Source: Phycisphaerae bacterium RAS2 (GTDB lineage Bacteria; Planctomycetota; Phycisphaerae; UBA1845; UTPLA1). From it: a stretch of 64,000 nucleotides of DNA. This document shows positions 49,627 through 64,000 of this stretch, piece by piece (within the stretch, counting starts at the first letter, position 1; each line of letters begins with the position of its first letter). A program made the position numbers and the translations under genes. The notes below the pieces were generated by a model. It was not told where the DNA came from. It searched no databases and saw nothing but the letters and a program-made list of their open reading frames with translations. The stretch spans positions 62,001 to 126,000 of the forward strand of contig CP036352.1 of the NCBI GenBank assembly GCA_007753915.1. Reading direction: 5' to 3'.

Positions 49627-50058
49627 TCAATCTGGATTGATTTTCGTCTGCGGTGCCTTGGGCAACGCATCGAGGTTTTCGTTGGAGCGAAGATCGCTTC
49701 GGAGGTGCGTCTTGCGAGTTGCCTTATCGTACGCAATCACGAATCGATCCGGCCCGGGCTTCTCTGACTTCTTGAGATACTCGTACAGTTGCAAATCGTG
49801 GACGACGTACATGCCGTTCTCTTTTGGAGTATGGCGACGCCAAAAGACCATGAGTTCATAGTCGGTACAGGAAAGTTCCCATCCGGATTCTGTCAGCGCG
49901 TTCGTCGCGTGTTCTTCCGCAAGGCCCCATCTGACTTTCTCATTATGATTCGGGTCATTTATTAGACAACCTGAAAGGAACAGCGTTGTGCCGCTGGCCA
50001 GCATCAAGAGCGTCGCATGACAGATATGCTTCGACAAGGGCATTGCTGGCTTAATCAT
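49627..50058 (-). CDS. Small lipoprotein, unknown
   Basis: A protein of about 143 aa with a signal peptide and lipobox (LFLSGC, Cys near residue 31). A short mature domain follows, with paired Trp/Tyr positions (GWELSCTDYELMVFWRRH, YVVHDLQLYEYLKKS). The start may be ATG at 50058, which overlaps the upstream megasynthase stop, or ATG at 50043; neither has a strong ribosome site. The overlap suggests coupling to the lipid synthase operon, but a functional link is unproven. Confidence 0.6.
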   Translation of the reverse strand: MIKPAMPLSKHICHATLLMLASGTTLFLSGCLINDPNHNEKVRWGLAEEHATNALTESGWELSCTDYELMVFWRRHTPKENGMYVVHDLQLYEYLKKSEKPGPDRFVIAYDKATRKTHLRSDLRSNENLDALPKAPQTKINPD

Positions 50059-53000
50059 TCGCAACGAGCCGAATCCCGAACTCTTTCATCTCGTAGATGA
50101 TAATCCCGTCCACGCTCAAAAACCCGTCGGCGACGAGCAGCGGTTCGGGGCTGTCGTCGCGGCGAGTGATGGCGGCGGAAACTTCGACGCGCCGATTTCG
50201 CGGGATAATCTGCCCTCGGTATTGCCACTCGTGGGCCAGCCCGACGGCGATGGATTCGAATCGATGCGTCGCTGCCAGCGCCGGCCAGCGATCGCGTGCA
50301 TAAGCCTTGAGAAGTTGCAGGAACGACTCCAGCCCCAGCGAACCAGGCCAGACCGGGTCTTGGTAGAAATGTGCCTTGAAGAACCACGCCGATGGATCGA
50401 CGGTCGTTGAGCCGGCGATGTAGCCCAACCCTTGCGGGCCGCCGTCGGGGAGCAAGGCGTCGATGCGATCGATCATGCGAAATGCACGGCCGGGCAGGGC
50501 AAGGCCGGCTTCGAGATCGCGATTCGATTCAGCCGCATCGTCCGGCGCGAACGGCGGATCGTCAGGCAGATCGAACGGCGCGCGGCCGGCGGAGAGTTGC
50601 TCGGCGGCGGGGACGAATCGCCGCGCGGCGGCATCCCGAATACCGACCTGCTGTGCAAGCGCGGTCGCCGAGAAAAAGCCGAATGACGTATCGCCGCTGT
50701 AGATCAATTCATCGCCGCGGCGCATTTCGAAATCGAACTTTTGGATAATCATGCCGCCGGCGCGGGAGACGCTCGTCATTCGAACGCGAGTCGTGAGCGT
50801 GGCGGGTTCAGCAAAAACTTCGGCGTGCTGCACCGCGCGGCCGCCCAGATTGCGGAAGCTTAAATCGACGTCGCTCGTGAGCGCAGAGCCGCAGTAGGCA
50901 GCGAGCCAGCCGCAGGGCTGCAAGGCGATTTCGAGCAGCACGGCGAATGGCATCGCGCGTTGTCGATTCGCGGCGAAATACCACGCGCCGGGTTGCGGCA
51001 CGCCGTCTGTCGCAACAGGCACGTCGTACTCGGCCGTGATCCAACCGCCCGGTTCGAGCACCCACGGCGGCGGCTCGATGTCCACGACGCGATCGAGGAA
51101 TTGATACGGCGGACCCGGCAGGCGAGCGATGCGTCGCTGCGAATCGAAAATGGCGTACGGCTCGCCGAACGCGTCGGAGGGTTTGCCGATGGCGAAAGCG
51201 AGAATGCGGTCCGTGTCGTAAATCGCCGCGCGGCGCGGGGCGATCGCGCTGAAAGTCGACGGATCGCTATCCATCGATTTCGCTATTGTCTGTGAATCGG
51301 GGTGGCATGGCCGCGGCTGTTGGCGGCCATGCTCTGCTGTGTCCGGGCGGACATATTCCCATGCCGCCTCAATCTCCTCGCGCGAAAGTCCCGTCACCTG
51401 CAGCGACATATTGTCCATGCGTACGATGCGTTTGTCGTCGGCGTACATGAGTGCGTCGGCGAGAACGTAGGGCGCCTGCATGCCGTCGGCCTTGGCGCGA
51501 TAGCCGATCTCTTTGATATGCAGTTCGTATCGTACGGTGCGAGTGCTTGTGGTGACAGGTCCGCGACACTGCAAAGCGCTGGCGACCCCGGGAATCGGCT
51601 CGTAGCAAACGCCGTCGCGCTCGCCGACCCAGCCGACGCGGAGCAGGAAGAATCGCAGCGTGTGCACGCAGCACTCGTACATGAGCGTGCCGGGCATGAC
51701 CATGTCATCCACAAAATGGCACGTCAGGTACCAGTCGTCGGGTTGCACGTCGGCCTCGGCGATGACGAGACCGAGTCCGAACCGTCCGCCGTGCAAATCG
51801 AGCGTCGTCACGCGATGGATGAGCGTCATGCGTCCGTCGGGCAGGCGCAGTGGATCGCGAAGCGACAATTTATCGAACGGTGCGCCGAAGCATCCGCCGA
51901 GGTCGCCGCGGCGCAGCGCATCGAGCTGCGCATCGCCGAACGACTGCGGTGCGTCTTGCTGCACGATTGGTGCAAAGTCGCCCGTGACGCGTCCGCCGGC
52001 CGGGGCTTTGTCATCGGCGGTGAGAACGATGCCGTGCGAATTCTCGATTTCCCGCGTGGTAAAGAAACCGGCGCAGCCGTCGCGCATGGTGAGGACGGTC
52101 TCCCCGTTGATCGTGCCGTCGAACTGGAAAAAGAACAGGTACGTTTCGCCTTGTCGGACGAAGCGGTCGATGGTGATGTCGTAACGAATCGTCTTGCCGG
52201 GCCGCGGCAGGCCGCGATGAAACGTGACGGTCGCATCAAGCAGGCGGTAGGCGCGGACGCCTTTGGCGACGAAATCAATACCGAGGTAGCCGGACAGGAA
52301 CAGATCGGCCTGGCCCGCTTCGACCGTGATGCTGATCGGAGCCCGGTCGCCGTCGAGGTACCACGCGCCGGGGAGCACGTCGTGCTCGGTGACGACGCGG
52401 CCGTGCGTGAGCGAGCCTTTCTCGCCGTCGATTTCGAGAATGCGATCGACGAGCATGAGCGGTTCGTCGGGCAGGCGCACGCGGACGGGATAGGTGTCTA
52501 CGACGGCGAACTCGGGGCCGAGAACGCCGGCGACGCGGCCGACCGCGAATTCAAGACATTTGGCGCGATCCAGCAGGGGCGGCGCGGCGACGATCCGAGC
52601 CGGATGACTCGGCGGTGTGTTTTGCGCGATCACCGGGGCGACACGTCCCGGCTCTGTAGGGTCGGCGTGCTCCGACTCCGCGAAATCTGTCAGCAACTTC
52701 GCCGTGTCCGCCAGCGCGTTGCGCGAGAATCGAAGAAACGTCTCGTGGGCCTGCGATGCGGCATTCGTTGTCACGTGAAACGCCGTGATCAATTCTGATT
52801 CGCTTTGTCCGGCGAGCGATGGCGCGGTCGCAGAAGATGGAACGGCAATCGGGTGTGTGATTGCCGTTGCGGCCGCGTCGAGTGCCGGCGCGGCGTGGCG
52901 ACGTGTGGATGGCAATCGCGGCTTGCCCAGACGCACGCCAACTGGAACGCGAACGGTCGCGTCGGTGCGCGTCGGTGTCTTCTCCCCGCTCTGCCCGGGC

Positions 53001-56000
53001 GACGGCGCATCAGCCGATTGAAACAACGGCGCGAAGTCAATCGGAACGCCCTCCGCGTAGAGCGCCGCCAATAGGTGAATGAACTCGCCGGTTTCGTCTT
53101 CGCCGCGCGGCACGGCCGACCGCGCGAAGTGCGGCCGCCCCTCGAGGATGCGACCGATCATGCGCGTGCAACTCGCCTGCGGGCCGATCTCGACGAACCG
53201 GCGCACGCCGTCGGTCCAGGCCCGTTCGATGAGCGCGGGAAAGTCGAAGCCCGTCATCGCCTGGCGCGTGATGGATTCGGCGGCGCTGGCGCGCGTCACC
53301 TCATACGATGTCGCCGCCGCCGCGCTGTAGTAGCGCACGCCGCTCGGTGGAGTCGTCTCAAGCAAATGAATGTCGCGATACGCCTGCTCGACCGATTTCG
53401 CCGCATCGCAGTGAACGGTCGGCACGCCGTCCGGCACGACCCCGCGACAACGCAGTGCCTTCATCATGGCATCCACATCGGACCGCAGGCCGCCGATCAC
53501 GCACTCATCGGGCGTGTTGACGATCAACAGCCGCGCCCGGAGCGGCCGGCCCTCGCGCTCGTATTCGGCCAGCGCCTTGCGCACGACGTCGGCCGATCGC
53601 GGGACGACGACCGCGTGCCAGTCGATGTTGTCATGGTCCGGCAGGCTCCAGCTTCGGCGCAGCGAGTCATACGGCGGGCCTAACTCCGAACCGAACAACG
53701 GCGACGCCGACATGCGGCGCAGAATCTCGTCGGGGGCTTGCCAGGCGCGCGTGGCGAAGAGACCGACCGATTCACCGAGGCTGTAGCCGATGACGGCGCT
53801 GGGACGGACGCCGAAGCTGGCCAGCAAATCGGTGACGGCCATGCCGAAGCCGACCTGTCCGAAGATCGGGCGGCGCAGATCGGCCGCGACCGTGCGTTCG
53901 AAATCGTGCCGCGCGGCGTCGTCGGCAAAACGCCACGGCGCGAACCAGCCAGCCATCATCAGCGAGGCGGCGTGCTCGGAATCGCGTTCCAGAGCAGCGA
54001 GCGCCGAGGGGAACGCATTGAACAGCGCGCTGCCCATGCCGAGGTAGTGATTGCCGGAACCGGGATAGACGAACGCGATATCGCCCGCGCGGCGGTGCGC
54101 ATCGGGTGAGTAATACACGCCATCGCGCCCATCGAGCGCAACGTCGGCATGGAGCGACAGCGCGGCGAGTGCGGCATCGATGGCGCAGCGCAGCGCAGAC
54201 ATGTCCATGGCGACCAGCGCAAGCGTTCGAGAGTCATTCGGCGCGGGGCCGGACTGACGACGCGCGGTGTTCCCGTCATTTGTCTTGAACCATCGATGGG
54301 CGATCCGGTGCACGTCGTCGTCCGACCGCTCCGCGAAATGCGCCAACTGGTCAAGCTGCGAGATGAGTTGGGAATTGGTGACGGCGCACAGGCAGAAGAC
54401 CGCCGGAGCGGCGGAATGGGTCGACCAAGGAGCGATCGTCGCGTGCGGTTTCCGCGCTGGCTCTTCCAACAGGATCGCAACGGATTCGCCGAGCGCAGAC
54501 GACGCTGCGGCGACGGCGCGGCGCGGGCCGATGGCTCGATCGTGCAGCCAGTGAGTCGGTCGCGCAAGGCAGCGCGAAGAATCGGCGAGATCGAGCGAGT
54601 CGGATGGAAGGGTCTTGTGGTGCAGCGCCAGCGCGGCACGGACCAGCGAGCCGATTCCGGTGGCAGCGCCGGCGGCACCGTGCGTGGCGTTCACGTCCCA
54701 CGCGCCGCGTGGGCTGAAGCCCGCGGCTCGTTGGGCGGGCGAGATACCTCGGGCGCGCGCGGAGGAAAATTCGGTCAATAAAGCGTAAACGCGATCACCG
54801 TCTCGCTCGGCATCGTCCAGTCGCTTGAGCACGACGGTTGCCGCGCCCTCGGCAACTTGCTTCGGCTCTTCACCTGAATCACGCTTTGATTGCGTCGTCG
54901 CCCACACGGCGCGCACGTCGCCGGCCAGATCGACCGCTCCGGCGACGGCCGCATCGATCTCGCCGCGCTGCAACATTCGCGCGGCGATCTCCACCGCTCG
55001 CAAGCCCGACGCGTCCTCGCATGAGACTGCAAAGCACGGTCCCCCGAACTGGAACTCCCGCGCAATGCGGCTGGCGATCATGCCACCCAGCGCGCCGACG
55101 GTTCGCGGCGCGTTTAACGCCGGACCGGTGGCGTCGCGCAGCTCGTCCAGCCACGATTCGAGATGCTCTTCATCCAGCGCCAGCCCCAGCGCCTCCGCCC
55201 AGCGGCGCACCTGCTCCGCGAGCCACCACCGCAGGTGAAAGTTCGTCGTCTCGAAGTCCAGCGTCATTCCGATCAGCGCCGCGACGCGCGGCCGTCGACC
55301 TCGCATCGGCATCTTTGCGTCGGTCATCGCGGCGGCGACGGATTCGAGCATGACGAGCTGTTGCGGCAAAATCTCGGGCAACTCCGCCGGAGGAATGTGA
55401 TAGCGGGTAATGGGAACTTCCAGATCGCGCAGGTAGACCCCGCGCGCGGCCGATCGCGCAAGTCCGTCGTGAAGCAGACTGTCGAGGTAGTCTTCAACTC
55501 CGCGCCAGCGATTGGGTGGTCGCGTCCGCGCCGTGGCGCCGTCACCGGCTGGATCATCATGAAACATCGCGCGTGCAATTGCATCGAGCGATTCGCACCG
55601 CCCGAATCGGGCGTCCATGCCGACGATTGCGATGGGCGATTCGGTCGCAATCCTGCCGGTGATTGACATGGGACGGGCAGCAGCCGAATCCGTAGCGTGT
55701 TCCTCAATCAGCACGTGTGCATTGATGCCGCCGAAGCCGAAGGCGCTGATCGCGGCGCGCCGCGGCGCGTTCTCTTCGCGGCGATTCCACGGCTGCGGCG
55801 CAGTGAGTACGCGGAACGGCGAATCGACGAGCGGGCTGCTTGGCCCGGGGCGTGTGAAGTTTGCCGACGGCGGCAGCACGCCCTCTCGCATGGCCAACAG
55901 CACCTTGATCAACCCGGCCGCACCGGCTGCCGTCAGCAAGTGGCCGACATTGGACTTGACCGATCCGATCGGCACGGGCGATTGCGATTCCGGCACACCG

Positions 56001-57058
56001 GCCCACATCGTGCGCAGCGAGGCCAGTTCGACGGCGTCGCCCGCCGGAGTGCCGGTTCCATGGCACTCAACAAGGTCGATCTCCCCCGGTGACCAGCCCG
56101 CCTGCTCGTAGGCCGCGCGCATCGCGCGAAGCTGCCCCTCGCTGTCGGGCGCGAGCAGGCTGCCGCCGATGTCGTTGGACAGGCCGATTCCCCGGATGAC
56201 GGCGTGAATGCGATCGCCGTCGCGCCGGGCGTCATCCAGCCGTTTGAGCAGGACGATCCCCGCGCCCTCTCCGACGACCAGCCCATCGGCCGATTCGTCG
56301 AACGGCGCGCAGCGACCGCTCGCCGACAGCGCCCGCAATTGCGAGAACCCCATTTGCGTGTACAGACATTCGGGGCGCGACACACCACCGGCGAGCATCG
56401 CGTCGGCGCGCCCGGCGGCGAGTTCGTCGCACGCGAGCTTGAGGGCGTACAACGACGACGCGCAGGCCGCATCGAGCGTGTAGGCACATCCGCCCAGTCC
56501 GAGCGCTTCAGCCAGCAGCGCGGCGGGCAGGCCGACGGCGGCGGCGTTTAGCGGGTGCGGCGATTTGCTTGCAGGCAGCACGGCATCCACGGGGCGACCG
56601 AGCACGCTTCGCGCGAAAGCCCGGCCGATCACCGCGCGCGTGATGGCCGATGCGCCGTCGGTGGGCAGGGCGATGGCGGCGAGAATCACGCCGGTTCGCG
56701 CGCGATCAAGTCGCTCGATCCCCGCCGCCGCGTCCTCCATCGCATCGCGGCCGGCATGCAGCACGAAGTGGTAAAGCGGATCAAGCCGGTTCAGCGACTC
56801 ATGCAGGTCGGGCGCGAGCGCCAGCCCGCGCGGATCAAGGCGAAAGTCCTCAACGTAGCACGCGCGGAGCGAATAGACCTTGTCGGGCGCGGGGCCGTCG
56901 GCGAGGGCATCCGCCGGGTTGAGAATCCATCGGCCCGGCGGCACATCGCGCGCGGCGTCGGCGCGCTGCACGATGTTGCGCCAGAAGTCAGCGAGCGACG
57001 CCGCGCCGGGGAAGACGCCGCCGATGCCGACGATTGCAATCGGGACCGAAGCACTCAT
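50051..57058 (-). CDS. pfaC: Pfa3/PfaC-type polyunsaturated lipid synthase
   Basis: A 2335-aa iterative synthase. KS is at about 5-455 with Cys199 (DAACASSL), His333 (HGTGTP) and His373 (NVGHLLTAAG). A KS-like chain-length factor at about 470-870 has Asp682 in place of the active Cys. AT at about 985-1290 has Ser1093 (GYSLGES). Four FabA-like hotdog folds run from about 1505 to the end; the second and fourth keep a catalytic His (His1781 in HFVDDMVMPG, His2230 in HFYQDPVWPG), while the first and third read PGAWYLDGDRAP and PGAWYFAANRQ without it. This order matches myxobacterial Pfa3, without its C-terminal acyltransferase. It condenses and dehydrates ACP-bound chains. It lies 21 bases after the partner synthase. 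Confidence 0.88.
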   Translation of the reverse strand: MSASVPIAIVGIGGVFPGAASLADFWRNIVQRADAARDVPPGRWILNPADALADGPAPDKVYSLRACYVEDFRLDPRGLALAPDLHESLNRLDPLYHFVLHAGRDAMEDAAAGIERLDRARTGVILAAIALPTDGASAITRAVIGRAFARSVLGRPVDAVLPASKSPHPLNAAAVGLPAALLAEALGLGGCAYTLDAACASSLYALKLACDELAAGRADAMLAGGVSRPECLYTQMGFSQLRALSASGRCAPFDESADGLVVGEGAGIVLLKRLDDARRDGDRIHAVIRGIGLSNDIGGSLLAPDSEGQLRAMRAAYEQAGWSPGEIDLVECHGTGTPAGDAVELASLRTMWAGVPESQSPVPIGSVKSNVGHLLTAAGAAGLIKVLLAMREGVLPPSANFTRPGPSSPLVDSPFRVLTAPQPWNRREENAPRRAAISAFGFGGINAHVLIEEHATDSAAARPMSITGRIATESPIAIVGMDARFGRCESLDAIARAMFHDDPAGDGATARTRPPNRWRGVEDYLDSLLHDGLARSAARGVYLRDLEVPITRYHIPPAELPEILPQQLVMLESVAAAMTDAKMPMRGRRPRVAALIGMTLDFETTNFHLRWWLAEQVRRWAEALGLALDEEHLESWLDELRDATGPALNAPRTVGALGGMIASRIAREFQFGGPCFAVSCEDASGLRAVEIAARMLQRGEIDAAVAGAVDLAGDVRAVWATTQSKRDSGEEPKQVAEGAATVVLKRLDDAERDGDRVYALLTEFSSARARGISPAQRAAGFSPRGAWDVNATHGAAGAATGIGSLVRAALALHHKTLPSDSLDLADSSRCLARPTHWLHDRAIGPRRAVAAASSALGESVAILLEEPARKPHATIAPWSTHSAAPAVFCLCAVTNSQLISQLDQLAHFAERSDDDVHRIAHRWFKTNDGNTARRQSGPAPNDSRTLALVAMDMSALRCAIDAALAALSLHADVALDGRDGVYYSPDAHRRAGDIAFVYPGSGNHYLGMGSALFNAFPSALAALERDSEHAASLMMAGWFAPWRFADDAARHDFERTVAADLRRPIFGQVGFGMAVTDLLASFGVRPSAVIGYSLGESVGLFATRAWQAPDEILRRMSASPLFGSELGPPYDSLRRSWSLPDHDNIDWHAVVVPRSADVVRKALAEYEREGRPLRARLLIVNTPDECVIGGLRSDVDAMMKALRCRGVVPDGVPTVHCDAAKSVEQAYRDIHLLETTPPSGVRYYSAAAATSYEVTRASAAESITRQAMTGFDFPALIERAWTDGVRRFVEIGPQASCTRMIGRILEGRPHFARSAVPRGEDETGEFIHLLAALYAEGVPIDFAPLFQSADAPSPGQSGEKTPTRTDATVRVPVGVRLGKPRLPSTRRHAAPALDAAATAITHPIAVPSSATAPSLAGQSESELITAFHVTTNAASQAHETFLRFSRNALADTAKLLTDFAESEHADPTEPGRVAPVIAQNTPPSHPARIVAAPPLLDRAKCLEFAVGRVAGVLGPEFAVVDTYPVRVRLPDEPLMLVDRILEIDGEKGSLTHGRVVTEHDVLPGAWYLDGDRAPISITVEAGQADLFLSGYLGIDFVAKGVRAYRLLDATVTFHRGLPRPGKTIRYDITIDRFVRQGETYLFFFQFDGTINGETVLTMRDGCAGFFTTREIENSHGIVLTADDKAPAGGRVTGDFAPIVQQDAPQSFGDAQLDALRRGDLGGCFGAPFDKLSLRDPLRLPDGRMTLIHRVTTLDLHGGRFGLGLVIAEADVQPDDWYLTCHFVDDMVMPGTLMYECCVHTLRFFLLRVGWVGERDGVCYEPIPGVASALQCRGPVTTSTRTVRYELHIKEIGYRAKADGMQAPYVLADALMYADDKRIVRMDNMSLQVTGLSREEIEAAWEYVRPDTAEHGRQQPRPCHPDSQTIAKSMDSDPSTFSAIAPRRAAIYDTDRILAFAIGKPSDAFGEPYAIFDSQRRIARLPGPPYQFLDRVVDIEPPPWVLEPGGWITAEYDVPVATDGVPQPGAWYFAANRQRAMPFAVLLEIALQPCGWLAAYCGSALTSDVDLSFRNLGGRAVQHAEVFAEPATLTTRVRMTSVSRAGGMIIQKFDFEMRRGDELIYSGDTSFGFFSATALAQQVGIRDAAARRFVPAAEQLSAGRAPFDLPDDPPFAPDDAAESNRDLEAGLALPGRAFRMIDRIDALLPDGGPQGLGYIAGSTTVDPSAWFFKAHFYQDPVWPGSLGLESFLQLLKAYARDRWPALAATHRFESIAVGLAHEWQYRGQIIPRNRRVEVSAAITRRDDSPEPLLVADGFLSVDGIIIYEMKEFGIRLVAND

Positions 57059-57079
57059 GGTTTCGTCATCGAGGCCGGA

Positions 57080-60000
57080 TCAGGCTGTCAGGCCGATCGG
57101 CGATTGTTTGCGGAACGCGGCGGACAGGCCGGCGTCGACGGTGCACTGGTAGCCGTCGATCCGCGCGACGATCGCGCCGTGGTGGTCGGTGAAAACAAAA
57201 TCGGCGGTGACGCGGGCACGCGACGACTCGGTCACGTGCATCGTGACGCGAACGCCGTCGCGCGGAAACCGCGCGCGGTGCTGGCGATACGCGGCCAGTC
57301 CGCTCGGCAGCGATAGCGCGGAAAGTTCTTCGTGGCACCAGAGGATCGCCAGTTGAAACGCGGCGTCGATTGCCAGCGGGTCGGTGAGCCATTCGCCGCG
57401 GATCGGCTGGGCCATCCACTCGCGCGCGTTGGGCGCGGTGCGCACTTCGGCGACAAGGCCGCGCGGCGAGATGCCGGAGATGGATTGAATCGCGCGAAAA
57501 TGCTCGCCGTGAAAGAGCACGTTGCCGTAAGCCGCGTCGATGGCCAGCGGGAACGGGCGATCGGTGAGCGTGTCGGTCCCGTTGGCATCGTCACCGGCCG
57601 GCGCGGGCCAGGCGCTGGCCAGCACGGCGCGGGCGCGGGCGTGCAGAATCTCGCGGTCGCCCCGGCCGACGGATCGCATCTCGACCGGAACCACAAATTC
57701 GCCGCCGCGCCGGGTCGGTGCGCCGGTCAGCCAGTGCAGGGTGCGGGCGCCGCCGTCCAGCACGACGCCGCGAAGAATACGAAAGTCTTCAATCCCCCCG
57801 AGCACAAGGCCGGGGTTGGCGTGGATGGCCGCCTGCCCCAGCCATTCCATCGCGACGGCAGCCGGCAGCACCGGATGCCCGTCGAGCAGATGAGAACGGA
57901 GGAACGGATGGCTCTCGATGTCGATGCGGCGGTTGAAAGCCGGGCGCAGGTCAGCGGCGTCGGTCGCCGCGGCATGGGTTGACCGCGCCGGTGTCTCGAA
58001 ACCGTCGCCGAGGATGACTTCCACCGCGCCGGTCGGCCCGACGCACTCGCGCACCATGGCCCGCGCGCCGGCATCAAGCGGAATCAGCGACACGCCGCGC
58101 TGGGCAAACGCGCGCTTAAGGCCCTCGTTAACCATGCCGCCGTTCCACGGCCCCCAGTTGATCGCGCAGACACCGGCGTGCGGCAGGCGCGCGGCGAGCC
58201 GGCGGGCGGATTTGTTCAGCACTTCGTTGGCTGCGGCGTAGTCGGCCTGACCGAGATTGCCGAATCGCCCCGCGACCGACGAAAACAGAATGATCTGTTG
58301 AAGTTCGTTTTGATCCAGTGCACCGAGCAGCGACCCCAGCCCGCACACCTTGGTGTCGTACACGCGGGCGAATTGTTCGTCGGTCTTGTCCTCGATGCGC
58401 CGATCTTCCAGCACGCCCGCGGCGTGAACCAATCCGCGGATCGGTCCCCATTCGCGCCGAATGCGCTCGATGACCGCGCGAGTCGCTGCGGCATCGCGCA
58501 CATCGACCGGCTCGTATCGCACGCGCGCCCCGGCCGCGGTGAGCCGGGCAAGCGTTGCGCGAATCTCGCGCTGCGCCACGTGACGCTCGTATGCAGCGCG
58601 CAGCTCGCGCGGCCCGACGCGCTGACCTGGGAACTCGTTAGCGGCAATGGCCTGCTTAATCGCGGCTTCATCGTCCATGCCGCGCAGCCACGCAGGCTCC
58701 TCGTTCGGAGTGGGCGAGCGGCCCAGGAGAACCAGCGCCGGCTGAACTGCCAGCGCGAGAGCTTCGGCCGCCGCCGCGGTGACACCGCGCGCGCCGCCGC
58801 TGATCACCACCACGTCGCCGGGATGCAGCGCCGGCCTGGCATCCATGGCCGGGGCATCGGCGAGGTCGAGGACGGCACGACCCGTCGCCGACAGGCCGAC
58901 TTCGATTTCGTCGCCGCGTCGCAGTTCCTCCGCCAGCGCGTCGGCGGCTGCGCCGGCTGCCAGATCCGGCGTGATGTCAATCACTCGGCACTGCACGTCG
59001 GGCCATTCGTGCGACGCCGACTTGACGATGCCCGCCAGGCCCGCATGCGCCGCATCGAAGTCTCCGCCGGTCAGGCCGAGCCGGCCGTCCATCCGGGTGA
59101 CGCACGCGAGCAAGGCACCGCCGTTCTTCGCGGCGGACTGGAGCGCCGGTGCGGCGCGCCGCACGAGTGCAAAGAGATTGCGGGTGGCTTGCTCGGTCTC
59201 GCTGCTCCAGAGTTGTGCGCCGGGACGGGTCGGCGGAAGGGTGAGAATCAACGCGGCCGGGTTCGCGGGCGGCACGGTTCCCGCCGCATCATCGAACGCG
59301 ATCGGGACAACGTGCGCGGCGAAACCTTCCGAGCGGAGCCGGTCGACGAGGCGATCGCCGAGGTCGTCGCCCGCGCTTGCGATCCAGACGGTCGCACCCT
59401 TCGGCAATCGCCAGGCGCGATCGGCCGGCGCGGAGGACTCCCGCGCTACCAGGACGCGACGCCGAAGTCGCACCGTGTCGGTCGCATCGTCCTTGCGCGG
59501 CGCAGCCGGTTGAGCGGCATCGCGCGAGTCGGTCTGCTTCGCGGGAGAGTAGTTCGCTGCGCCGCCCTGTGAGGCAAAGTAATCGACGATCTGTGCGAGC
59601 GTGCGGAGGCTGCCCATGTATTCCGGCTTGACCGAGGTGACATCGGGCAGGCGGCCCTCAACCGCCGCGAGAATCTCCACGCGCTTGATCGAGTCGATTC
59701 CGAGATCGGCTTCCATGTCCATGCCGAGATCGAGCATGTCGCGCGGATAACCGGTGAGATGCGCGACCACGTCAAGCAACACATCGGAAAAGATGGATGT
59801 CGGTGACGCGATCGGCGCGGTTGAAGCGGACGGTGTCGTCGCGGCGGCCTGCGTCGAATGCGAGTCGTCCGACAAGGCCGGCCTGCCTTGGGTGAGCGGA
59901 GTATTTACGGACTTGTCCAGGCCCGATTCCACAAACGTGAGAATCTCGCGCAACGTGCGGATGCCGCCCATGTATTCCGGCTTGATGCCGCCGAACGCCG

Positions 60001-63000
60001 GGACGCGCTCCTCGATGGCCGCGACGATCTCCACGCGCTTGATCGAATCGATGCCGAGGTCGGCTTCGATGTCCATGTCCAGCTCGATCATGTCGCGCGG
60101 GTAGCCGGTCTTCTCGCAGACGACATCGAGCACGACGCTTTCGTGCGAGGCGGACGCGGTTGCTGTTGACGCGGGCCGCGCAGGCGTCGTAGCCGGCGGG
60201 GCAACGCGTGCGATCGGAACGGGTGCGGGGTCGGGGGCGACGGGCTTTGCCGGGACGACGGGCGTCGGATGCGGCGCGGCGGTCGACATGGCGAAAGCCG
60301 GGGCGGAGCCGGCCATTGGCTGCACCGTGCGCGCGATCGGCGATGCAGTCGGCGCACCGGAGAGCGCTCGGCCGTGCGTCTCGAGAAGTTGCACGAAGGC
60401 GCGGTGGGCCTGTTCCTGTCCTTCGAGGAAGCGCTGGTGAGCCGCGGCGGTCTGTTGTTGCAGCGCCTGCATGGCTCGCAGCCCCTCGTGGAGCAACTGC
60501 GCGGCGTCCGAGGTCGGAGCGGGCGCCTGGTGACTACCCAGCGCCGGCGATGGGGCGGACGGTGAAAGCTCGTTCATGTTCGTCTCAATCTTCTTTGTGT
60601 TCGGTGAATTGTGCGAAATCGATGCCGCGACGGGGGCAAGTCGCGCCGAAGCGGTCGACGCAGGTGTCGCGGTCGGAGTTCTTGGCGCGATGGATGGCGC
60701 GACGGGATTAGCGTGCGTGGGCACGGCGGCAGCCGATGGTATCGACGCCGGCCGTGCGGTGTCCTTTTCGGGTTTCGTCGTTCTCGGCGCACGGTAATTC
60801 GCGCCGGTCAGCGGAACGACCATTCGCGGTGAGCGCGGCTCGGGCGTTTCACGTTCCCATTTGGCGAGATCAACCCGACGGCCTTGCGCGGCGAGCTGCG
60901 CCAGAACACAGGCAAGGTGGAGCGTGCCGTCGCGGCCGGCGGGCGCTTCGAGCGCCAGTCGCGTGTGCGGTCGATCGCCGAGCGTTGCGTGAACGAGGCC
61001 CGACAACACCTGCTTTGGCCCGACCTCGACGAACGTATCAACCCCGGCATCGGCCAGCGCGCGCGTCACAGCGATGAAATCCACGGGCGATGTGAGTTGC
61101 TCGCCGAGCACGGCCCGCGCCCCCGCTCCGGCGGGATACAGCGCGCCCGTCGCGCCGGCCAGCACCGGCACGCGCCCCGGCGCAAACTCGACGGCTTCCA
61201 GCGCTTGGCGGAACGGTGCCGCGGCCGATTGCATGAGCGAACTGTGGAACGCACCGGAGACATCCAGCGCCTTCGTCGCCCAGCCGCGCGCCTTGCACGC
61301 CTGGGCCGCCGCGGCAATGGACTCGCGCGCGCCGGAGAGCACAGCCTGCGACGGCGCGTTGCGGTTGGCCAGAACCACATCCAGCCTTTCAGCCTCGATG
61401 AGCGCCGCGATCTCGTTGACGGGCGCCTTCACTGCCAGCATCGCGCCGCGCCCGCCATCGCCGGCGGACATCAACCGACCTCGCAGCCGTGCGAGGCGAT
61501 GCAGCGTTGCTTCGTCGTAACGACCGGCGACGCACAGGGCGACCAGCTCGCCAAAGCTATGGCCTGCCAGCAAATCGGGTGCGATGCCGAATCGTTCCAG
61601 CACGCGCGTCATGCCGATCGACACCGCTCCCAGCGCGGGCTGTGCGTGTTCGGTCTGGTTCAACTCGCGCGTGGCGGTTGACTTCCGGGCGTCGTCCAGC
61701 GGACCACGCGGGTAGATCAGATCGCTGACGCGCGCGTCGGATTCGTCGGCCGCCTCCTCCGCTGCTTCCAGCGATGCGATCATCTCCGGGAATGTGCACG
61801 CCAGATCGCGCCCCATGCCGAGATGCTGGCTGCCCTGCCCGGGAAACAGGAACGCGAGCTTGCCGGTGGGCCGGCCCGCGCCGTACAAGACATTTGTATG
61901 TTCCTTGCGGGACGCCGCGTTGAGGTCATGATCGCCGGCCTGCGCGGCATCGATCCTGCTCCGGGCGCGTTGCAACGCCGCGCCGAGGTTCTCGTTAGCG
62001 TCAAGCACCATCGTCAGGCGGTGCGCGTGCTCATGGGAGAACGCTTTGCGCGATCGAGCGGCGAAGTGCGCGAGCCACGCGGGCGACGTGCGGCCCGCGC
62101 GGACGTGCTGCGACCAATCATCCAGCTGTGCGAGCAGTCCGGCCGGCGAATCGCCCGACAGCGCGATGATCTGCGCCGAGCCGTCCCACGCCGGTTCAGC
62201 GAGCGCGCCGGGCGCGGCCTCCAGCAATGCGTGAAAATTGCTTCCCCCGAAACCGAACGAACTGACCCCCGCGCGGCGCGGCCGACCGCGGCGCGCCACC
62301 CACGGACGCAATTCCGTGTTGATGTAAAACGGACTGGTGTCGATATCCAGTTTCGGATTCGGCCGGGCGACCTTGATCGTCGGCGGCAGCGCGCCATGGT
62401 GAATCGCCAGGGCCGCTTTGATCAGCCCCGCCGCGCCGGCCGCCGCCTTGGTATGGCCGATCTGTGATTTCACCGAACCGACAGCGCACCAGCGCGCGTC
62501 GGCGTCATTCGCAGCCTCGCGATACACGCCTGACAGCGCGTCAAACTCGACCGCGTCGCCGACTTTCGTGCCGGTGCCGTGGGCTTCAATCAGCTCGACT
62601 TCATGCGGGGCAAGGCCGGCGATCTTGTACGCATTTCGCAGCGCGCGGGCCTGACCCGCGGCGTGCGGGGCGTAGATGCTCTGCGAACGGCCGTCGCTCG
62701 ACGTACCGATTCCGCGGATGACGGCGTAGATTCGATCGCCGTCGCGCTGGGCGTCGGGCAGACGCTTCAATACGAGCATGCCGATGCCCTCGCCGAGCAC
62801 CGTTCCGTCGGCATCGTCGGCGAAGGGCCGCGCGTCGCCCGTCGGCGAGAGCGCCGGCGTCTTGCTGAAGCACATGTACATGAAGATGTCGTTCAGGGCG
62901 TCGACGCCGCCGGTCAGCGCGAGATCGCACCGCCCCGTGGCCAACTCCATCATGGCGAGGTGCGCGGCGCTCAACGAGCTGGCGCAGGCCGCATCGACCA

Positions 63001-63622
63001 CGCAGTTGGTCCCGCGGAGATTGAGACGATTGGCGATTCTCCCCGCGACCACGTTGCCCAGGAGGCCGGGGAATGAATTCTCCTGCCAGCTCACGTACGC
63101 GTCGGAGATTTTCGCCAAGGCCGACTCGGCCTGATCGGCCGGCACGCCCGCCTCGGCCAGCGCCCGCCGCCAGATCGGATGCCCCAGCCGCGCCCCAAGC
63201 GGCAGGGCCAGCTCCTGCAAGCCCGTTACGCCGAGGATGACACTGGCCCGCTCGCGGTTGAACTCGCGCGACTCGCCGTAGCCCGCGTCCTCCAGGGCCG
63301 CCTTCGCCACGACGAGGCTCAACAGTTGCGACGTGTCGGTCGCTTCGAGAATCGTCGGTGGGATGCCGAACTCCGTCGGGTCAAACTCCGTCGTCGAGAG
63401 AAACCCCCCGCGCCCGCAATATGTGAAGTCCGGCCGCTTCGGATCGGGGTCCACGTAGTCGGCGATGGACCAGTGCGAAGGCGGCGTGGGCGTGATGGCG
63501 TCGTCCCCGCGGCGCAGAAGCCGCCAGAATGCGAGGATGTCCGCCGACTTGGGGAACATGCACCCCATGCCGATGATGGCGATGGGTTGAGCGGGAGTGT
63601 CCGTCGTTCGCGCGATGCTCAT
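57080..63622 (-). CDS. pfaA: Pfa2/PfaA-type polyunsaturated lipid synthase
   Basis: A 2180-aa iterative synthase. KS is at about 10-470 with Cys213 (DAACASS), EAHGTGTK and SQIGHTKAAAG. Malonyl-type AT is at about 587-890 with Ser689 (GHSFGEL). After a Pro/Ala/Thr-rich linker come two tandem ACPs with Ser1193 and Ser1311 (both LGIDSIKR), to be activated by an unlinked phosphopantetheinyl transferase. KR lies at about 1390-1830 with GGARGVT and Tyr1795 (ADYAAANE). A PKS-type double-hotdog DH is at about 1895-2170 with His1911 (HLLDGHPVLP) and Asp2086 (DAAFQ). It extends, reduces and dehydrates a growing acyl chain together with the downstream synthase. Confidence 0.92.
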   Translation of the reverse strand: MSIARTTDTPAQPIAIIGMGCMFPKSADILAFWRLLRRGDDAITPTPPSHWSIADYVDPDPKRPDFTYCGRGGFLSTTEFDPTEFGIPPTILEATDTSQLLSLVVAKAALEDAGYGESREFNRERASVILGVTGLQELALPLGARLGHPIWRRALAEAGVPADQAESALAKISDAYVSWQENSFPGLLGNVVAGRIANRLNLRGTNCVVDAACASSLSAAHLAMMELATGRCDLALTGGVDALNDIFMYMCFSKTPALSPTGDARPFADDADGTVLGEGIGMLVLKRLPDAQRDGDRIYAVIRGIGTSSDGRSQSIYAPHAAGQARALRNAYKIAGLAPHEVELIEAHGTGTKVGDAVEFDALSGVYREAANDADARWCAVGSVKSQIGHTKAAAGAAGLIKAALAIHHGALPPTIKVARPNPKLDIDTSPFYINTELRPWVARRGRPRRAGVSSFGFGGSNFHALLEAAPGALAEPAWDGSAQIIALSGDSPAGLLAQLDDWSQHVRAGRTSPAWLAHFAARSRKAFSHEHAHRLTMVLDANENLGAALQRARSRIDAAQAGDHDLNAASRKEHTNVLYGAGRPTGKLAFLFPGQGSQHLGMGRDLACTFPEMIASLEAAEEAADESDARVSDLIYPRGPLDDARKSTATRELNQTEHAQPALGAVSIGMTRVLERFGIAPDLLAGHSFGELVALCVAGRYDEATLHRLARLRGRLMSAGDGGRGAMLAVKAPVNEIAALIEAERLDVVLANRNAPSQAVLSGARESIAAAAQACKARGWATKALDVSGAFHSSLMQSAAAPFRQALEAVEFAPGRVPVLAGATGALYPAGAGARAVLGEQLTSPVDFIAVTRALADAGVDTFVEVGPKQVLSGLVHATLGDRPHTRLALEAPAGRDGTLHLACVLAQLAAQGRRVDLAKWERETPEPRSPRMVVPLTGANYRAPRTTKPEKDTARPASIPSAAAVPTHANPVAPSIAPRTPTATPASTASARLAPVAASISHNSPNTKKIETNMNELSPSAPSPALGSHQAPAPTSDAAQLLHEGLRAMQALQQQTAAAHQRFLEGQEQAHRAFVQLLETHGRALSGAPTASPIARTVQPMAGSAPAFAMSTAAPHPTPVVPAKPVAPDPAPVPIARVAPPATTPARPASTATASASHESVVLDVVCEKTGYPRDMIELDMDIEADLGIDSIKRVEIVAAIEERVPAFGGIKPEYMGGIRTLREILTFVESGLDKSVNTPLTQGRPALSDDSHSTQAAATTPSASTAPIASPTSIFSDVLLDVVAHLTGYPRDMLDLGMDMEADLGIDSIKRVEILAAVEGRLPDVTSVKPEYMGSLRTLAQIVDYFASQGGAANYSPAKQTDSRDAAQPAAPRKDDATDTVRLRRRVLVARESSAPADRAWRLPKGATVWIASAGDDLGDRLVDRLRSEGFAAHVVPIAFDDAAGTVPPANPAALILTLPPTRPGAQLWSSETEQATRNLFALVRRAAPALQSAAKNGGALLACVTRMDGRLGLTGGDFDAAHAGLAGIVKSASHEWPDVQCRVIDITPDLAAGAAADALAEELRRGDEIEVGLSATGRAVLDLADAPAMDARPALHPGDVVVISGGARGVTAAAAEALALAVQPALVLLGRSPTPNEEPAWLRGMDDEAAIKQAIAANEFPGQRVGPRELRAAYERHVAQREIRATLARLTAAGARVRYEPVDVRDAAATRAVIERIRREWGPIRGLVHAAGVLEDRRIEDKTDEQFARVYDTKVCGLGSLLGALDQNELQQIILFSSVAGRFGNLGQADYAAANEVLNKSARRLAARLPHAGVCAINWGPWNGGMVNEGLKRAFAQRGVSLIPLDAGARAMVRECVGPTGAVEVILGDGFETPARSTHAAATDAADLRPAFNRRIDIESHPFLRSHLLDGHPVLPAAVAMEWLGQAAIHANPGLVLGGIEDFRILRGVVLDGGARTLHWLTGAPTRRGGEFVVPVEMRSVGRGDREILHARARAVLASAWPAPAGDDANGTDTLTDRPFPLAIDAAYGNVLFHGEHFRAIQSISGISPRGLVAEVRTAPNAREWMAQPIRGEWLTDPLAIDAAFQLAILWCHEELSALSLPSGLAAYRQHRARFPRDGVRVTMHVTESSRARVTADFVFTDHHGAIVARIDGYQCTVDAGLSAAFRKQSPIGLTA

Positions 63623-63760
63623 TCAGGGGTCCGACTTCGGAAAGTGCGTTACGTGCCTGGCCGATCCGGGTTGACTGCTTGTGTGAAAGGGGGAAGTATA
63701 AGGGAAAGAGCCTGACGGCCGCACCCCCCACGGCATTCATAAACCTTTTGGTAAAATAAT

Positions 63761-63815
63761 GTTATGGTTGTCAAGAGAATTGAGAAGAGCGAGTTGCGAA
63801 GAGTGAAACCATAAC
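63761..63815. promoter_or_regulatory. Inverted repeat upstream of the lipid synthase genes
   Basis: GTTATGGTT (63761-63769) and AACCATAAC (63807-63815) are perfect 9-bp arms 37 bases apart, in an A+T-rich patch of the gap before the Pfa2-like gene. The right arm lies inside a smaller repeat, GAGTG (63801-63805) and CACTC (63815-63819). This could be an operator with two half-sites or a loop in the leader RNA. Confidence 0.4.
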
Positions 63816-63856
63816 ACTCAAAGCGAACTCGTGTTCGCAGGTGCCTTCGAAATTCG

Positions 63857-64000
63857 CTATTCAGCCAACGCCCCCTGCACGTCCGCCAGTTCCATCGGTT
63901 CGAAGCGCGCCAGGTCCGGGGCAATCTCCACGCCCTGCGCCCGCAACCAGTTTACGCGCGTCAGCACGGCCGCGCCGAGCATCAGGTTCATCGCGACGGC
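63857..64000 (-). CDS. C-terminal end of probable PfaD/Pfa1 enoyl reductase
   Basis: The last 47 codons of a gene that enters from the right edge and stops with TAG at 63857. The text AMNLMLGAAVLTRVNWLRA followed by QGVEIAPDL resembles the C-terminal helix of FMN-dependent enoyl reductases of the PfaD/trans-AT ER family, from memory of that family. The position immediately upstream of the Pfa2-like gene is that of Pfa1 in myxobacteria, which supports the reading. The fragment is too short to be sure. Confidence 0.5.
   Translation of the reverse strand, partial: AVAMNLMLGAAVLTRVNWLRAQGVEIAPDLARFEPMELADVQGALAE

Follow-up and report, generated by a model that had tools for sequence, protein, structure and literature searches.

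An intact Pfa-type synthase locus in Phycisphaerae bacterium RAS2 and its likely link to OleABCD hydrocarbon synthesis

Organisation of the pfa locus

The pfa locus of Phycisphaerae bacterium RAS2 was analysed in a window of 64,000 nucleotides (positions 62,001 to 126,000 of contig CP036352.1) and in the adjoining DNA of the same genome (G000), which consists of a single contig (C1) of 4.32 Mb. The host is a member of the Phycisphaerae order UBA1845, in agreement with the planctomycete origin proposed in an earlier note made from the letters of the window. The pfaD-pfaA-pfaBC gene set is complete, lies entirely on the reverse strand and is located behind ispH, with the following genes (window positions, unless C1 is given).

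50051..57058 (-), pfaC homologue with fused acyltransferase (AT) (pfaBC, Pfa3-like), 2335 aa, assigned by domains and tree
57080..63622 (-), pfaA homologue (Pfa2-like), 2180 aa, TIGR02813 1475 bits (cut-off 1010.1)
63857..64000 (-), 3′ end of pfaD (enoyl reductase, ER), whole gene at G000:C1:125857-127905, 682 aa
C1:127929-128981, ispH, outward of pfaD

The intergenic gaps are 23 bp (ispH-pfaD), 234 bp (pfaD-pfaA) and 21 bp (pfaA-pfaC). Both of the adjacent megasynthases described in the earlier note are thus present as open reading frames, at 50051-57058 (-) and 57080-63622 (-), and what had been read as the end of an enoyl reductase at the right edge belongs to a true pfaD (TIGR02814 666 bits, cut-off 449). 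The search to the right of the window for a complete FMN reductase yielded this PfaD-family gene of 682 aa, ending at window position 63857, where a gene unrelated to PfaD would have counted against a Pfa synthase. Upstream of pfaD are ispH and an M3 peptidase gene, and downstream of pfaC are dapF, ispF, cysS, ruvC, ruvA and ruvB; no PKS, NRPS, type III PKS or glycosyltransferase gene was found in these flanks.

PfaD carries an N-terminal extension at residues 1-135 (gene at L010:3857-5905, i.e. window 63857 to 65905) with a conserved helical stretch, ARSGARLALGTIFAGANVLIDLGVRAARALP. The extension is common to most family members, is missing in G208, and is possibly a membrane or partner docking segment.

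Domain architecture of PfaA and PfaC

In PfaA, the Pfam and NCBIfam models recognised a ketosynthase (KS), an AT, two acyl carrier proteins (ACPs), a ketoreductase (KR) and a PKS-type dehydratase (PS-DH), the tandem ACPs being marked by two copies of the LGIDSIKRVEI motif.

62213..63610 (-), ketosynthase, active Cys in VDAACASS
60968..61861 (-), malonyl/acyltransferase, GHSFGE, His in AFHS
59918..60145 (-), ACP 1, ADLGIDSIKRVEI, bounds approximate
59558..59785 (-), ACP 2, ADLGIDSIKRVEI, bounds approximate
58073..59335 (-), ketoreductase, GGARG nucleotide motif, S-Y-N residues
57140..57973 (-), PS-DH, His in LRSHLLDG, Asp in AIDAAFQ

The same models recognised in PfaC the N- and C-terminal parts of a KS, a weak Acyl_transf_1/PfaB-like AT and three FabA stretches, while the fourth hotdog domain and the chain length factor (CLF) were recognised by alignment. 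The AT is placed between the CLF and the dehydratase (DH) domains, which represents a pfaBC fusion.

55664..57046 (-), ketosynthase, active Cys in LDAACASS
54449..55651 (-), chain length factor, active KS Cys absent (alignment, tree)
53009..54091 (-), PfaB-type acyltransferase, GYSLGE, TIGR02816 110 bits
51989..52471 (-), hotdog 1, carries the E of EAGQADL
51389..51850 (-), hotdog 2, CHFVDDMVMPG, active His
50669..51181 (-), hotdog 3, LLEIALQPCG
50087..50497 (-), hotdog 4, AHFYQDPVWPG, active His

The domain orders read earlier from the letters, KS-AT-ACP-ACP-KR-PSDH for the PfaA-like and KS-CLF-AT followed by four hotdogs for the PfaC-like protein, are the orders found here. Pfa-like synthases of Hgl, Ars and zeamine-like systems make other secondary lipids (PMC3098273; PMC13291983), and a hydroxylated or keto chain destined for a glycolipid, phenolic lipid or lipopeptide might be considered here as well, but such a product is very improbable for a cluster in which all DH pairs look intact, the enoyl reductase is present, and the flanks hold none of the PKS, NRPS, type III PKS or glycosyltransferase genes named above.

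Placement among Pfa synthases

The quick maximum-likelihood tree comprised 103 KS and CLF domains, taken from sequences other than the named Aetherobacter, Sorangium, Shewanella, Moritella, Hgl and Ars ones and other than the Geobacter and Gemmata type members. PfaA-KS, PfaC-KS and CLF each formed one starred (100*) Pfa group, and the window domains fell inside each of the three, which upholds the assignment to Pfa-type synthases. In this quick tree, to which Hgl and Ars did not contribute, the window KS and CLF domains stood apart from modular PKS and FabF, and a modular PKS was thereby ruled out. The window grouped with ER-PfaA-PfaBC loci of Planctomycetota (including Limnoglobus, Gemmataceae), Acidobacteriota, Verrucomicrobiota and 'Deltaproteobacteria', and outside the gammaproteobacterial/Persicobacter group. 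The PfaA-KS and PfaC-KS were also separate from those of Azospirillum, Embleya and L226, the CLFs of which formed very long branches of unsure placement.

The latter group served as a stand-in for the myxobacterial kind, because Azospirillum is listed among the near relatives in the Minicystis paper (PMC8436480), and the exclusion of the myxobacterial kind therefore rests on proxies. The Azospirillum and L226 proteins each carry an AGPAT (PF01553) domain, and none was found in the window PfaC, which stops 98 residues past its last PGSLG motif. The myxobacterial AGPAT-fused kind was rejected on the missing AGPAT. Of the likeness to pfa1-pfa2-pfa3 of terrestrial myxobacteria proposed in the earlier note, the order ER-PfaA-PfaBC stands. 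A tie to myxobacteria beyond this order is not supported, considering the tree, the missing AGPAT and the wide occurrence of the order, which many Planctomycetota, Desulfobacterota/'Deltaproteobacteria', Acidobacteriota and Verrucomicrobiota have as well. The distinction from the marine pfaA-E layout with a free AT was borne out, as the AT is fused and the ER comes first.

The window synthase probably belongs to Type I of Shulse and Allen, the type in which they place Geobacter, Pelobacter and Gemmata (PMC3098273). It was matched to this type by their text, the type members being absent from our tree. With Type I (Shulse and Allen 2011; Geobacter, Gemmata obscuriglobus) the locus shares the pfaBC fusion, tandem ACPs and ole genes, and its KS and CLF fall in a clade containing Gemmataceae and 'Deltaproteobacteria'; it differs from Type I in the N-terminal extension of PfaD (roughly 130 residues), in its linkage to ispH and in a genome without an Sfp/PfaE-type phosphopantetheinyl transferase (PPTase). 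The myxobacterial loci (Aetherobacter, Minicystis, Sorangium; Type L) have the same order of ER, KS-AT-ACPs-KR-DH and KS-CLF-AT-DHs and a cluster likewise devoid of a PPTase gene, but, unlike in Type L, the Pfa3-like protein here has no terminal AGPAT and falls outside the Azospirillum/Embleya proxy group, and the genome has no separate Sfp-type PPTase elsewhere. With the marine gammaproteobacterial pfaABCDE systems (Types A/B) the locus has its catalytic domains and its Pfa KS/CLF clades in common, but its AT is fused (no free PfaB), its ER is first instead of last, two ACPs are present versus 4-6, and PfaE is missing.

Conservation and selection

On the basis of alignment with relatives, the catalytic residues of both KS domains, both ATs, the KR, the PS-DH and both FabA-like hotdog pairs were conserved. 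Omega values against a genome of the same genus (G002) were 0.19 for pfaC, 0.17 for pfaA and 0.13 for pfaD, similar to or lower than those of the neighbouring ispH (0.22) and dapF (0.24). A decayed locus was ruled out by the intact frames and low omega; as judged from its sequence, the Pfa synthase locus is real and intact. The pfaD gene was present in 13 out of 16 sampled genomes of the host family and in 37 out of 397 genomes of the class. In genomes from at least three families ispH was located just upstream of pfaD, a linkage which suggests that the pfa locus is an old one in the order. The ER tree was compatible with a single origin in the order, without demonstrating one.

Irregularities in pfa genes were observed in three other genomes. 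In G184, of the same order, the pfaA frame is in three pieces (L061:5035-12176), perhaps due to sequencing error. No AT was detected in PfaC of G296 (L057:11747-17074), and in G171 (L066) PfaA lacks a detected KR and PfaC a detected AT, the PfaD open frame being 1005 aa long.

Ole genes and the likely product

Outside the window, the genome encodes homologues of the four Ole enzymes. OleA (C1:358457-359494; NF006720 461 bits, cut-off 285) and OleC (C1:466484-468214; NF006754 715 bits, cut-off 478) were identified above cut-off. An OleD homologue adjoining OleC scored 389 bits with NF042422, under the cut-off of 580, and an OleB-like alpha/beta hydrolase is encoded beside OleC, there being no specific model for OleB. 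These OleB and OleD candidates are homologues of OleB and OleD in the pfa-linked operons of relatives. Since oleA is situated ca. 230 kb and oleBCD ca. 340 kb away from pfa, the olefin link in this genome rests on relatives.

Among 57 Phycisphaerae genomes, OleA exceeded the cut-off in 37/37 with pfaD versus 9/20 without (Fisher 9e-7), and OleC was present in 37/37, one split across contigs, versus 10/20 (Fisher 4e-6), both values being uncorrected for shared ancestry. No case of pfa without ole was found in this set, and two f1 genomes and four f5 genomes that lacked pfa had neither OleA nor OleC. In 11 pfa-positive genomes oleA follows right after pfaC on the same strand (from gene positions in ten, from spacing in G266), and oleB, oleC and oleD come next after oleA in G148, G106, G066 and G210, as well as in L219, which is not of this class. 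In G205 and G143 oleA is near pfa but convergent.

Type I synthases were suggested earlier as the source of olefin precursors, Geobacter bemidjiensis (Type I) produces hentriacontanonaene (PMC3098273), and with Shewanella genes OleA draws acyl chains from the PfaA ACPs in vivo (PMC6463001). From the oleA-pfaC operons of relatives and the co-occurrence, the main product is likely to be a head-to-head polyunsaturated hydrocarbon, in place of omega-3 fatty acids such as those of soil myxobacteria, and the comparison lends support to Type I Pfa synthases as suppliers of the Ole enzymes, as suggested before. The arrangement resembles that of Shewanella in that one genome holds both a Pfa synthase and homologues of OleA, OleB, OleC and OleD, with pfa-oleABCD operons in relatives, and differs from it in the type of Pfa synthase, the phylum and the scattered ole genes.

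We therefore regard it as probable that this type I iterative Pfa synthase, itself intact, feeds OleABCD, leading to a very long polyunsaturated olefin. In such a pathway, malonyl units would be loaded by the PfaA AT and condensed by the KS and KS-CLF pairs on the two tandem ACPs, which are presumably charged by AcpS. The KR would reduce the chain, the PS-DH together with the FabA-like hotdog pairs would dehydrate and isomerise it, and PfaD would reduce it in part, giving methylene-interrupted polyenoyl chains made without oxygen. OleA would then take the polyenoyl-ACP intermediate and join two chains head to head, and OleD, OleC and OleB would convert the OleA product to a very-long-chain polyunsaturated olefin comparable to hentriacontanonaene (31:9). 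This route would amount to oxygen-free synthesis of long polyunsaturated hydrocarbons in an order that has been reported mostly from low-oxygen environments (PMC11266412), and for a large, uncultured planctomycete group it replaces a 'PUFA-like gene cluster' with a specific, testable product. As ole is present in relatives without pfa, the Ole enzymes must use other acyl chains there.

A strict PUFA synthase, releasing a C20-C22 chain by the fused AT for membrane phospholipids as in Aetherobacter, Minicystis and Shewanella, would accord with the full set of domains and conserved residues, and with a fused AT at the position of PfaB, a protein that affects which product is made in marine bacteria (PMC3098273). 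We consider it unlikely, given that the window PfaC has no AGPAT, that its place in the tree is apart from the marine gammaproteobacterial and AGPAT-fused groups, and that many relatives have oleA in the pfa operon. Membrane PUFA, among the products considered in the earlier note, is hence not the best supported one, as oleABCD linkage and co-occurrence favour the head-to-head hydrocarbon. The synthase could also make an EPA-like fatty acid alongside that hydrocarbon, as happens in Shewanella pealeana.

Two KAS III proteins (C1:1111230 and C1:4071694, StlD/DarB-like) were judged not to be OleA, and the OleD-like protein beside the latter not to be OleD; the StlD/DarB-like KAS III is followed by an HpnA/OleD-like reductase (L234:3807-6552, G000:C1 about 4070806-4073551). 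In G118 and G052 a single frame encodes OleB and OleC as a fusion (L309:7233-9866, L310:7126-10683).

Phosphopantetheinyl transferases

Pfa synthases normally require an Sfp-type PPTase. The search for a PPTase proposed in the earlier note returned AcpS only: one PPTase was found in the window genome with PF01648, identified as AcpS (TIGR00516 98 bits, cut-off 59.8), and no Sfp-type PPTase was found in the genome by PF01648 or an Sfp-type profile, nor a PUFA-type PPTase near the pfa cluster. A second PPTase hidden elsewhere in the genome was rejected, neither profile having matched a further gene. With PF01648 a single PPTase was also found in 21 out of 21 pfa-positive genomes of the order UBA1845, of AcpS type in the 15 sequences read, the other six open frames of 129-178 aa fitting AcpS. 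Outside the order, all 12 pfa-positive genomes had at least one PPTase open frame of at least 223 aa, as expected of the Sfp type. The Sfp-type profile had no match in 12 genomes of the order; its four positive genomes are the rows of the profile itself and hence no independent control, and PF01648 gave the same contrast. Reading through the AcpS start regions of pfa-positive and pfa-negative genomes revealed no obvious signature. The reverse pattern, i.e. one Sfp-type PPTase and no AcpS detected, was observed in four pfa-positive Phycisphaerae genomes, G143, G205, G300 and G066 (L160, L177, L167, L166).

These conserved Pfa synthases with AcpS as the only detected activating enzyme pose a puzzle. 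AcpS is reported to accept FAS and type II PKS ACPs only (PMC7457351), which leaves the charging of the Pfa ACPs unexplained, and E. coli has its own AcpS, yet pfaE-deficient pfa clones in this host gave no EPA or DHA (PMC2901515). It could be argued from this, and from the missing Sfp-type PPTase, that the synthase is inactive for want of a PfaE-type enzyme to charge its ACPs. Such inactivity is hardly credible for genes under purifying selection as strong as that on ispH and dapF, in a cluster kept in most sampled members of the family and in at least three families, mostly beside ispH. Either AcpS serves the Pfa ACPs, or another PPTase exists. We tentatively suggest, at just under an even chance, that across this low-oxygen planctomycete order an AcpS-type enzyme may activate a type I Pfa megasynthase dedicated to the OleABCD polyunsaturated hydrocarbon; the AcpS could then provide a PPTase of small size for making PUFA or olefins in heterologous hosts.

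At L235:2215-11818 (G000:C1 about 792214-801817) the genome encodes another iterative PKS (KS-AT-KR-DH, 2038 aa), likewise without a PPTase domain. Adjoining it are genes for proteins of the DUF1702 and UnbV/ASPIC FG-GAP kinds, a set reminiscent of enediyne-type cassettes.
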